Below, in pieces: positions 6,423-12,536 of a stretch of DNA of 45,358 nucleotides. The DNA is taken from positions 1 through 45,358 of the forward strand of contig JALSNX010000012.1 in the NCBI GenBank assembly GCA_026986775.1, read 5' to 3'. This DNA comes from Caldifarciminota bacterium (GTDB taxonomy: Bacteria; Hydrothermota; Hydrothermia; UBA1063; CAJXJZ01). The notes under the pieces were generated by a model. That model was not told where the DNA came from. It made no database searches and saw nothing but the letters and a program-made list of their open reading frames with translations. Position 1 is the first letter of the stretch; every line of letters begins with the position of its first letter. The translations under genes and the position numbers were made by a program.

Positions 6423-7998
<1,576 letters not shown>

Positions 7999-8023
7999 AA
8001 AGAGAAAAAAAAGGAAAAATTAC

Positions 8024-8054
8024 CTCTCACTCAGAAACACACCACTTTTTTTTT
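8024..8054 (+). repeat. 3' strand of the 16S processing stem plus T-tract
   Basis: 8024-8046 pairs perfectly with 6393-6415. The stem's last base begins a run of nine Ts (8046-8054), so the same element may also help end the 16S transcript. The T-run role is an inference. Confidence 0.75.
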
Positions 8055-8073
8055 ATCCACACAAATTTAACCT

Positions 8074-8102
8074 TTGATTCCCCACATTAATACCTTTATA
8101 AT
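8074..8102 (+). promoter_or_regulatory. Separate promoter for tRNA-Ile
   Basis: TTGATT (8074-8079), a 17-base spacer and a perfect TATAAT (8097-8102), 11 bases before the tRNA. It would make tRNA-Ile and the following genes independent of the 16S promoter. Confidence 0.75.
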
Positions 8103-8113
8103 TAGACTTATCT

Positions 8114-8187
8114 GGGCCTGTAGCTCAGATGGTTAGAGCGTACGCCTGATAAGCGTAAGGTCGGTGGTTCGATTCCACCCAGGCCCA
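8114..8187 (+). tRNA. tRNA-Ile (anticodon GAT)
   Basis: Acceptor GGGCCTG pairs with CAGGCCC; discriminator A; no encoded CCA. Anticodon stem TACGC/GCGTA encloses CTGATAA with anticodon GAT, which reads AUC/AUU. T arm GGTTCGATTCC is present. Its place after 16S matches a classical rRNA operon, but here a protein gene follows instead of tRNA-Ala and 23S. Confidence 0.95.
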
Positions 8188-8202
8188 TTATTAATAAAAG
8201 AA

Positions 8203-9097: not shown

Positions 9098-10318
9098 ATG
9101 TTTCCCTTTTCATACATTCATTTTACAAGGATGGTTAAGGAACTGGAAAAACTGAAGGAGAGCAGGTTATCCGGTTTTTTTTATGAGAAAAATAAGCGTA
9201 TAGGATATCTGGATTTTAACAGCAAAAAGCTATATTTTGACCTCACCCATCCTTATGTATCATTTTTCATTACAGAAAATATAGATGTACCTGCTATTTT
9301 TGAAAAAAAAGAAATTGGAATAGAGGGTCTTACTCTGGAGAAGGTAAAGGGAATAAAAAAAGACAGAGTGGTTTATCTCGTTCTCAGAAAAAAATCTCTC
9401 TTAAGAGTTGTTGCACTTGAGTTGACAGGAAAGGCCTCATATTTTCTTGTAATAGACGATGATGGTAAAATTGTAAGAAAATACCCACCATATCGGAGAA
9501 GAAAAAAAGGTGGTGATGTGGGAGAAGAATATCATTTACCTCCCAAAAATCCCAATGTTAATATTAAAAAGTACTTTCCCGTGTTACAGCATGTTGAAGA
9601 GGATGAGCTTTTAAGAAATTTTCTGGAAGCTGAGAGTTTTTACACTGATGGGAATACAATACTTCCTTTTGAGTTTGAAGGTTCAGTTTTTTGTGGAGGG
9701 TTTTCAGAGTGTATGTTTTCCCTTTATAGAAAACTCCGCTTCGGCTTTGTTAACGTAGAAAGCCATTTAGAGGTTCCCTATTATATTTATTACAAAGCTG
9801 CTTCCATGTTACAAAAGGGGTTAATTGTTCCTGTGGATAATGAGTTAAACATAGATGGGTACAGAATAGTCATACCCGGGACTATAAGGGACAGAGAGGA
9901 ATCCATTGAGTATCTGTATCGTCTCGGAAAAATTATGCGGCTGAATTCGGCTCTGAGAACGCATTCTAAAAGTGAGACGGCACGTGGTAGAAAAAGCAAG
10001 CTCATATCTCCCTCGGGGTATGAGGTGCTTGTCGGTCATTCAGCAAAAGAGAATAACAGGATAACATTTAACATAGCACGTCACGATGATACTTTTTTCC
10101 ATGTTCGTGATTATCCAGGCGCCCACGTTATATTGAGAAATCATGGTGAGCCCATTACAGAGGATGATATAGTTTTCTGCGCTCAACTTGCCAGGAGGTT
10201 TTCCAGGGCCAGAGGGGATTCGGTGGATGTTAGCTACACATCGGTGAAATACGTAAGGCCCATTCCAGGAAAGCCGGGAAAGGTCATTTTACTGAAAGAG
10301 AAGAGTGTGAGGGTATAA
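9098..10318 (+). CDS. rqcH: Short RqcH/NFACT-family protein
   Basis: RqcH binds peptidyl-tRNA on stalled 50S subunits and recruits tRNA-Ala to add alanine tails to stuck nascent chains. This 406-residue protein has an NFACT-N-like region (about 1-130) including the DR pair at D89-R90 (IKKDRVVYLV), which matches the Asp-Arg motif needed for tailing, and a clear C-terminal NFACT-R domain (YEVLVGHSAKENNRITFNIA, then FFHVRDYPGAHVILRNHG). The long central coiled coil of normal RqcH (about 570 residues) is essentially missing. The ATG at 9098 is two bases after the previous stop; the gene ends in TAATG shared with rsmG. Confidence 0.8.
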   Translation: MFPFSYIHFTRMVKELEKLKESRLSGFFYEKNKRIGYLDFNSKKLYFDLTHPYVSFFITENIDVPAIFEKKEIGIEGLTLEKVKGIKKDRVVYLVLRKKSLLRVVALELTGKASYFLVIDDDGKIVRKYPPYRRRKKGGDVGEEYHLPPKNPNVNIKKYFPVLQHVEEDELLRNFLEAESFYTDGNTILPFEFEGSVFCGGFSECMFSLYRKLRFGFVNVESHLEVPYYIYYKAASMLQKGLIVPVDNELNIDGYRIVIPGTIRDREESIEYLYRLGKIMRLNSALRTHSKSETARGRKSKLISPSGYEVLVGHSAKENNRITFNIARHDDTFFHVRDYPGAHVILRNHGEPITEDDIVFCAQLARRFSRARGDSVDVSYTSVKYVRPIPGKPGKVILLKEKSVRV

Positions 10319-10905
10319 TGTTCAACGCCATAGAGAGGGAGCTTTTAAGGAATAACATAAATATTGAAGAAAGGAAAGTTTTGAAATTGAAGGAATACTG
10401 GGATTTACTTCTTTTACATCAGAGAGCTCTTCATCTTTTTTCAAGGAAGGACCCTAATAAAGAACTTGCGAGGCAATTCTATGACATTATTCTTCTAAAT
10501 GTTTTTCTTCCGGAATATGAAGAGCTTATTGACGCTGGTTCTGGTGCAGGATTTGCTGGTGTAATACTGGCCATTCTAAACGAACAGAGAGACTATACGC
10601 TTGTTGAGCGTTCGGAAAAAAGAGGTAACTTTCTTGAGCTTGTTGCTGTGAAGCTTAATCTGAATAACGTTAGAATATTCAAGGGAAGTATTGAAATCTT
10701 TGAGTCAGATGCTGATGTTGTTGTTTCCAAGGCATCCTGTATGAGGAAGTTACTTGAGAAAAGACTTATTAACCTGGTAAAGGTCGGTGGAATTCTTGTA
10801 CACTTTACTGCTGTACCCCTACCTTCTCCTTATAAGAATTTTCCATTTTTTAATCCTTTCAGAGAGAAAGAAGCGTATCTTTCTGTAGTGGAAAGAGTTA
10901 TATGA
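10318..10905 (+). CDS. rsmG: 16S rRNA (guanine-527-N7)-methyltransferase
   Basis: Methylates N7 of G527 in 16S rRNA with SAM. The 195-residue protein has the class I SAM-binding motif ELIDAGSGAGFAGVILAIL (about 72-90), matching RsmG's DxGSGxGFPG, and the upstream KEYWDLLLLHQRALHLFSRK that fits the family's WNxxxNL region. The usual proline of GFPG is alanine here. The ATG overlaps the stop of the previous gene by one base. rsmG directly before parA-parB is the widespread origin-proximal arrangement. Confidence 0.92.
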   Translation: MFNAIERELLRNNINIEERKVLKLKEYWDLLLLHQRALHLFSRKDPNKELARQFYDIILLNVFLPEYEELIDAGSGAGFAGVILAILNEQRDYTLVERSEKRGNFLELVAVKLNLNNVRIFKGSIEIFESDADVVVSKASCMRKLLEKRLINLVKVGGILVHFTAVPLPSPYKNFPFFNPFREKEAYLSVVERVI

Positions 10906-10906
10906 A

Positions 10907-10922
10907 TGTTTCACGTGAAACA
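10907..10922 (+). promoter_or_regulatory. parS centromere site (ParB-binding)
   Basis: TGTTTCACGTGAAACA is a perfect 16-base match to the universal chromosomal parS palindrome. It starts one base after the rsmG stop and 65 bases before parA. ParB loads here as a CTP-dependent clamp. Confidence 0.95.
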
Positions 10923-10987: not shown

Positions 10988-11740
10988 ATGGAGAAAATTG
11001 CAATAGCAAACCAGAAGGGCGGAGTAGGTAAAACCACTACAGCTGTAAATCTCGCACATGCTCTTGCAGAGGCTGGAAAGAGGGTGTTGGTTCTGGATAT
11101 TGACCCCCAGTTGAATGCCACGAGTGGTCTGGGAGTTGAAGAACGGAAGGAATCCAATATCTACCACTTTTTGATAGGTGAAAAGGATTTTAATGAGGTG
11201 AGCGTGATGGTGGATAATAATCTGTATCTTGTTCCTGGAACAAAAGACCTTGCCGGGCTTCAGGTTGAAATAGCCTACATAGACAGGTGGCAGACCCTGC
11301 TCAGAAAGAGGCTTAAAACCGTTAAAGATTTTGATTTTGTTGTATTTGATACTCCGCCATCTATCGGGCCTTTTACCATACTATCACTTGTGGCCGCTGA
11401 CTCTGTAATAATACCTGTCCAGTGCGAATACTATGCTCTGGAGGGTCTATCGCAACTCATAAAGACCATCAAGATGGTAAAAGACTCTTTTAATCCTTCA
11501 CTCAAAATAAAGGGACTTTTACTTACCATGTATGACAGAAGGGTGAATCTTTCCAGACAGGTTGAAGAGGAGGTGCGGAGGTACTTTGGCAGAAAGGTGT
11601 TTCGCTCTGTTATTCCAAGGAGCATACGTCTTGCAGAGGCTCCGAGTTTTGGTATGACCATTTTTAGATATGCACCGCATTCTGCGGGAAGTGAAAGTTA
11701 TAGAGAACTTGCAAGGGAGATTCTAAATGGGAAAAACTAA
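10988..11740 (+). CDS. parA: Chromosome-partition ATPase ParA/Soj
   Basis: A 250-residue deviant-Walker ATPase that binds the nucleoid and moves ParB-parS complexes. Visible motifs: KGGVGKTTTAVNLA (deviant Walker A, about 10-23, with the signature lysine), VLDIDPQLNATSGLG (A'), and FVVFDTPPSIG (Walker B). The length is that of chromosomal Soj without an N-terminal DNA-binding domain. The ATG lies ten bases after a -10 box and has no ribosome site. It overlaps parB by 14 bases. Confidence 0.96.
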   Translation: MEKIAIANQKGGVGKTTTAVNLAHALAEAGKRVLVLDIDPQLNATSGLGVEERKESNIYHFLIGEKDFNEVSVMVDNNLYLVPGTKDLAGLQVEIAYIDRWQTLLRKRLKTVKDFDFVVFDTPPSIGPFTILSLVAADSVIIPVQCEYYALEGLSQLIKTIKMVKDSFNPSLKIKGLLLTMYDRRVNLSRQVEEEVRRYFGRKVFRSVIPRSIRLAEAPSFGMTIFRYAPHSAGSESYRELAREILNGKN

Positions 11741-12536
11741 CAGGAGAAAATTGGGCAGGGGTCTTGGAGCCCTGTTGCCTGAGAGTAACCTTGAAGAGAA
11801 TTTTAGATATTTATCTGTTGATGCCATACAACCAAATCCATATCAGGTGCGTGAGGTGGAGGATGTTGATGACCTTATACCATCAATTAAAGAACACGGC
11901 ATCATTCAACCTCTTCTGGTAAGGAAGAAGAATGGTTCCTTTATACTGGTTGCTGGAGCAAGAAGGCTTAAAGCGGCAAAAGAATTAAAGATGGAAAAAG
12001 TGCCTGTCTATATTCTATCCATCGGAGAAAAGGAAGCTTTGGCGTTAACTCTTGTGGAGAATCTTAAAAGAGAGGACCTGAATCCCATAGAGGTTGCAGA
12101 GGGCTACAGGAGACTTATTGAAGAGTTTGGTCTTACTCACGAAGAGGTGGCAAGAATTTTTGGTAGGGATAGAAGCACGATAACCAATTCGCTGAGGTTG
12201 CTTAAACTAACAGAAGAGGTTAAGGACCTTATTAAACAGAAAGCCCTGCAGGAAGGTCATGCAAGACTTCTTCTTGGCCTTGAAGATAGTGAACAAATTC
12301 GTGTGGCCAGAGAGGTTGTTAAAAAGGAACTCAGTGTAAGGGACACGGAGATTTTAATCAGGAAGCTCAAAAATAGTAAAACAAGAAGAAAGAGCGCACC
12401 TTTAAAGGTTAAATCCGAACTTCTTGATGTTGATGTCTATGTGCACAGCGGCAAAAGGGGAGGAAAGATTGTTATAAAGTACAGAAGCAGAGAGGAGTAT
12501 GAGAAACTTAAAAAGGCTTTACAAATTGGAGGATGA
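11727..12536 (+). CDS. parB: Chromosome-partition CTPase ParB/Spo0J with GARR motif
   Basis: A 269-residue parS-binding protein. The N-terminus has the ParA-stimulating peptide RKLGRGLGALLP (7-18), then the CTP-binding domain with IIQPLLVRKKN (59-69) and residues 77-80 GARR, the helix-turn-helix (about 115-160, LTHEEVARIFGRDRSTITNS) and a C-terminal dimerisation region. In nearly all chromosomal ParB proteins residues 77-80 read GERR; codon GCA gives alanine in place of the glutamate needed for CTP hydrolysis. Overlaps parA by 14 bases, and its stop TGA lies within the ATG run of the next gene. Confidence 0.95.
   Translation: MGKTNRRKLGRGLGALLPESNLEENFRYLSVDAIQPNPYQVREVEDVDDLIPSIKEHGIIQPLLVRKKNGSFILVAGARRLKAAKELKMEKVPVYILSIGEKEALALTLVENLKREDLNPIEVAEGYRRLIEEFGLTHEEVARIFGRDRSTITNSLRLLKLTEEVKDLIKQKALQEGHARLLLGLEDSEQIRVAREVVKKELSVRDTEILIRKLKNSKTRRKSAPLKVKSELLDVDVYVHSGKRGGKIVIKYRSREEYEKLKKALQIGG

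Follow-up and report, generated by a model that had tools for sequence, protein, structure and literature searches.

CTP hydrolysis and the Box II glutamate in described ParB proteins

Hydrolysing chromosomal ParB CTPases carry one catalytic glutamate in Box II (E78 in Bacillus subtilis, E102 in Caulobacter crescentus) and a second in Box III (E111 and E135, respectively). In B. subtilis, E78Q and E111Q both bind CTP normally and close the gate without hydrolysing it, E78Q showing no appreciable hydrolysis, and Ala or His at either site gave similar initial results (PMC8494293). The C. crescentus E102A protein, whose Box II reads GARR, retains CTP binding, lacks hydrolysis and becomes locked as a clamp that comes off DNA about 15-fold more slowly (PMC8367383). 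M. xanthus E93A has been described as hydrolysis-defective (PMC9178275), and M. xanthus ParB deficient in CTPase activity can nonetheless load, its release then occurring slowly by spontaneous opening (PMC10770331). The PDB entry for M. xanthus E93A (7o0n), also a GARR protein, is titled as containing CDP and monothiophosphate, the products of CTP-gamma-S turnover, and the Q52A entry as containing intact CTP-gamma-S. Read literally, these titles mean that CTP-gamma-S was turned over in the crystal by the Ala mutant, which would be compatible with residual slow turnover when Ala occupies the site.

Plasmid ParBs lacking the Box II glutamate are already known. F SopB and P1 ParB have DGSRRR in Box II, with Ser at the Glu site, and SopB turns over about 14 CTP per hour by itself, rising to about 44 when its parS is present (PMC8357417). 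The SCP1 proteins ParB1, with Ser, and ParB2, with His, also hydrolyse CTP; the S109A and H110A substitutions lowered activity without abolishing it, detectable CTP binding was lost in ParB2 H110A, and the authors regard the chromosomal residues as "one solution" and not as a strict requirement (PMC13245405). Because such plasmid proteins, naturally devoid of the glutamate, hydrolyse CTP, a loss of turnover cannot be read from the sequence of this box.

An ordinary parABS locus with alanine at the Box II site

The window, the whole stretch of 45,358 nucleotides analysed here, contains a ParB of 269 amino acids (11727..12536, forward strand) that has Ala in place of the catalytic Box II Glu. 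Its start is overlapped by parA (10988..11740, forward strand), which encodes a Soj-type ATPase of 250 amino acids with the motif KGGVGKTTT. A perfect palindromic parS, TGTTTCACGTGAAACA, to which no strand is assigned, lies at 10907..10922, 65 bp from parA, and on its 5′ side is an rsmG/gidB-like gene (10318..10905, forward strand) whose TIGR00138 match of 92 bits narrowly misses the cut-off of 99.5. The gene rsmG/gidB is the usual neighbour of parAB, and the order rsmG-like, parS, parA, parB is the usual chromosomal arrangement. Within ParB, profile searches found ParB_N (E=3e-21) and HTH_ParB (E=1e-36), with PF02195 (75.7 bits), PF17762 (125.5 bits) and TIGR00180 all above their cut-offs, and a ParB_C dimerisation domain at the expected position that scores 19.2 bits, below its cut-off of 23.8. 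The ParA-binding and activating motif LGRGL, as defined in PMC12704722, occupies residues 9-13 (11751..11765, forward strand), and the parS-binding HTH domain residues 116-215 (12072..12371, forward strand). With the domains of a chromosomal ParB (the HTH-ParB of ParABS), an adjoining parA and a nearby parS, the locus is an intact, ordinary chromosomal ParABS system. Elsewhere in the window, positions 6423-8188 carry a full-length 16S rRNA gene and, after it, tRNA-Ile(GAT); since the window has no 23S or 5S rRNA match beyond them, the rRNA genes seem to be unlinked.

A second, Glu-bearing ParB hidden elsewhere was considered, and none was found in the genome (2.18 Mb, 98% complete), where the window ParB is the sole PF02195 protein. 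The parS is likewise the only match to its sequence in the window allowing up to three mismatches and in the genome allowing up to one, and each of the four genus members has a single parS, about 0.8 kb 5′ of parB.

Box II spans residues 77-80 (11955..11966, forward strand), and the codons GGA GCA AGA AGG encode G77-A78-R79-R80. If GARR were an artefact of sequencing or assembly, or if parB were damaged, a single base change, from GAA to GCA, would suffice. Against this, GARR is present in all four genomes of the genus, in proteins 67-76% identical to that of the window; the Ala78 codons are GCA, GCT, GCA and GCA, the flanking codons differ as well, and the frames are open in four independent genomes. 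GARR is therefore no sequencing error, and we consider this explanation refuted, with next to no probability left to it. Within the same order, the sister family has GERR at Box II. In a maximum-likelihood ParB tree built without the Box II Glu column, the four GARR proteins group together (SH-aLRT 99) beside four GERR sisters, with support of 98 for the joint group. Because the GARR proteins cluster beside these sisters, a single E-to-A change in the genus ancestor, from a GERR state, explains the distribution. In that sister family (f2, G004-G008), four of the five genomes have the canonical GERR ParB, and a search for TGTTTCACGTGAAACA allowing one mismatch found no parS in its genomes, where parS may have diverged.

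The original prediction had read GARR from the same codons beside a perfect parS and ParA, and these readings hold. Its statement that Bacillus E78Q and Caulobacter E102A bind CTP without hydrolysis matches the published work cited above, and the comparison with related genomes that it proposed finds the change throughout the genus.

The CTP pocket and loss of the glutamate across the phylum

The CTP-contacting residues of Caulobacter that could be placed on the alignment (Q58, R60, S74, G79, G101, R103, R104, N136 and R139), as well as the catalytic E135, all have equivalents in the four genus members when mapped by motif, not by structure superposition. In Caulobacter, mutation of R60, S74, G79, R103, R104, N136 or R139 abolishes CTP binding (PMC8367383). 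An AlphaFold model of the window ParB has the ParB fold with a mean pLDDT of 90 when an alignment is used, and only 62 from the single sequence. In the PDB, the closest folds are those of M. xanthus ParB and of Noc, several of these structures being nucleotide-bound, and the best sequence match is 7o0n, the M. xanthus GARR mutant. The second catalytic glutamate is also retained, as Glu111 (12057..12059, forward strand; Bacillus E111).

Other positions of the boxes have changed throughout the genus: P41V, R82K, A108T and Q114K. The sequence NPYQVR replaces NPxQPR, so that in Q40-V41-R42 (11844..11852, forward strand) the CTP-contacting Gln and Arg are kept and Val replaces the intervening Pro, which every one of the phylum's 87 Glu-type ParBs has. 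Lys114 (12066..12068, forward strand), giving ENLKR for ENLQR, is confined to the genus. The protein had been described as an otherwise normal ParB, which is not quite right for the pocket, because NPYQVR, ENLKR, K82 and T108 are specific to the genus. That several pocket residues are altered together could suggest that the pocket has decayed and that ParB has become independent of CTP, its role being reduced to binding parS and activating ParA. This is very improbable, as Q40, R42, S53, G58, G77, R79, R80, E111, N112 and R115 are strictly kept in proteins of 67-76% identity, and parS and parA are retained.

These changes may instead have come jointly with the loss of the glutamate, as two comparisons hint. 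The CTP boxes hold five of the six strongly conserved columns that changed throughout the genus (Fisher p=0.016), where strongly conserved means at least 75% in Glu-type ParBs, the value being 0.14 at 70% and 0.17 at 90%. A residue other than Pro at position 41 is confined to ParBs without the Box II Glu (4/14 families versus 0/18 Glu families, p=0.03). Both results, together with the SopB and SCP1 enzymes and the "one solution" view of the SCP1 authors, speak for a rewired pocket, in which V41, K82, T108, K114 or some other group would sustain hydrolysis at an ordinary rate and E78 would be one workable solution among several. However, the clustering test depends on its threshold and its rows are not independent, the related Bacillus and Caulobacter substitutions are inactive, and within the conserved CTP boxes the genus has gained no acidic residue that could compensate. 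The nearest acidic candidate is E43, directly after R42, a position that is acidic in 17% of Glu-type ParBs. We regard an ordinary-rate rewired pocket as possible, though unlikely.

The main weight of our findings lies on the pattern across the phylum; the loss of Glu in the genus is a real natural variant and no unique exception. A search of 147 genomes of the phylum gave 119 ParBs readable at the Box II site: 87 with GERR, 17 with GHRR, 8 with GSRR, 4 with GARR and 3 with GGRR. About a quarter (32/119) thus have His, Ser, Gly or Ala at the Glu site, belonging to 14 of 32 families, and Box II is uniform within each family, save for one divergent second match in f23. On a smaller tree of 91 rows, the Box II Glu needs at least eight changes, of which well-supported branches alone force two. 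Glu111, by comparison, is present in 119/119, and since His, Ser, Gly or Ala occur in 14 of the 32 families while Glu111 is invariant, the Box II position tolerates loss of its glutamate. Most systems of the phylum with a non-Glu ParB keep a parS. Outside the phylum, searches with patterns avoiding the Box II motif gave 80 ParBs, all with GERR, a narrow comparison in which 66 are from Bacillota.

Within this survey, the GHRR ParBs of f14 (L144, L148, L149, L156-L158) and f4 (L142, L151, L152, L155) carry further pocket changes, N37S/G for example, and R82E in f14. In families f5, f7, f8, f12 and f30, most genomes have no close relative of the window ParB, some of them being more than 90% complete.

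The loss of one glutamate in 14 chromosomal ParB families of a single phylum adds to what was known from plasmids. Since the other glutamate is never lost, natural variants with His, Ser, Gly or Ala could separate the roles of the two, and they bear on whether, and through which residues, ParB needs CTP hydrolysis.

Probable CTP turnover without the Box II glutamate and without SMC-ScpAB

With an even chance of being right, in our view, the genus ParB is a working CTP clamp whose binding and gating are intact and whose hydrolysis is slowed or rerouted. E78 changed to Ala in the genus ancestor, accompanied by the other pocket changes. Loading at the single parS, CTP binding, N-gate closure and sliding would all continue, and E111 together with the remodelled pocket would sustain hydrolysis at a lower rate than that of GERR ParBs. 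Slower hydrolysis would then give longer-lived clamps and wider spread from one parS. CTP binding, slower hydrolysis and a longer clamp lifetime are thereby inferred. Because Glu is missing from about a quarter of the ParBs of the phylum, hydrolysis is probably slower or different and not simply absent, and the natural hydrolysis of CTP by SopB and the SCP1 ParBs supports this by analogy. Against this reading, the closest tested homologues, from Bacillus, Caulobacter and Myxococcus, favour absent over slow, because in them loss of the Glu alone removed measurable hydrolysis or left a protein described as hydrolysis-defective. Further, the Asp preceding the Gly in SopB and P1 ParB might compensate for the missing Glu there, and the window ParB has no Asp at that place; the lack of detectable CTP binding in SCP1 ParB2 H110A also counts against it.

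If hydrolysis were nil, the clamp would bind CTP, close and come off the DNA solely through spontaneous opening, and a genus without SMC would partition its chromosome from a single parS with a naturally non-hydrolysing ParB, related families having lost the Glu several times. The exact GARR match to the clamp-locked Caulobacter E102A, the behaviour of Bacillus E78Q and E111Q, and the slow freeing of CTPase-deficient M. xanthus ParB by spontaneous opening after loading (PMC10770331) all agree with this. On the other side, E111 remains fixed in all 119 ParBs, SCP1 ParB1 retains CTPase activity with Ala at the site, and the genus has no SMC-ScpAB. Profile searches of the four genus genomes (G000-G003) found no SMC above the cut-off, no ScpA and no ScpB, and run on named controls and on two families of the same class, f4 and f10, these searches do detect ScpA and long SMC-like matches. 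Hydrolysis mutants of B. subtilis remain healthy as long as Smc is present, whereas without Smc parB(EQ) is nearly inviable, with 25-35% anucleate cells. As such cells barely grow, a locked clamp in a genus lacking SMC-ScpAB should be costly unless the system has been rebuilt. A hydrolysis-free system thus seems doubtful, about equally possible as the rewired pocket with an ordinary rate. The original prediction had proposed a partition system with slow or no CTP turnover. Slow turnover is plausible; given the SopB and SCP1 enzymes and the 32 ParBs of the phylum that have no Box II Glu, its absence does not follow from Ala at this site.

The genus combines two losses, of the Box II Glu and of SMC, that are almost lethal together in B. 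subtilis, and by that analogy either its ParB would hydrolyse CTP or its partition system would have been adjusted. We considered whether SMC serves as a backup that permits Glu loss. ScpA is present in 10/13 non-Glu families and in 11/16 Glu families (p=0.70), and as its presence is unassociated with Glu loss, such a backup fails to explain the losses; the GARR genus itself has no SMC-ScpAB. A genus-specific SMC-like protein was also considered and rejected: the best SMC match, L173 (1,052 amino acids), has no SMC match above the cut-off and only a sub-threshold AAA_15 match, and is instead an AAA protein with a long coiled coil. Outside f4 and f10, every member of the class searched likewise lacks ScpA.

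Compared with described proteins, the window ParB shares the absence of Glu at the Box II site with F SopB, P1 ParB and SCP1 ParB1 and ParB2. SopB and the SCP1 proteins are measured CTPases, but all of these belong to distant plasmid subfamilies, and in SopB and P1 ParB the Gly is preceded by Asp and the ENLQR box is missing. VirB resembles the window ParB in having only one of the pair of residues with which chromosomal ParBs hydrolyse CTP, and it binds CTP and is a weak CTPase with a kcat of about 0.1 per min (PMC10770331), but it serves as a transcription anti-silencer instead of partitioning chromosomes. In M. xanthus, the natural ParB-fold protein PadC binds CTP without hydrolysing it, and its residue at the site is F348 instead of Glu; unlike a parS-bound clamp, it is a ParA adaptor, and the ENLQR motif is wholly absent. 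With the chromosomal ParBs of B. subtilis (Spo0J), C. crescentus, M. xanthus and T. thermophilus, the window ParB has in common its domain order, LGRGL motif, HTH, parS and gene neighbourhood. The CTP pocket of these CTPases, which include the best PDB matches in sequence and fold, is alike except at E78, and the window ParB differs in its Ala for the Box II Glu, in Val41 and Lys114, and in coming from a genome without SMC-ScpAB. The engineered M. xanthus E93A and C. crescentus E102A have an identical GARR box, but they are single laboratory changes in a protein adapted to GERR, whereas in the genus an old, naturally arisen change is joined by others in the pocket.
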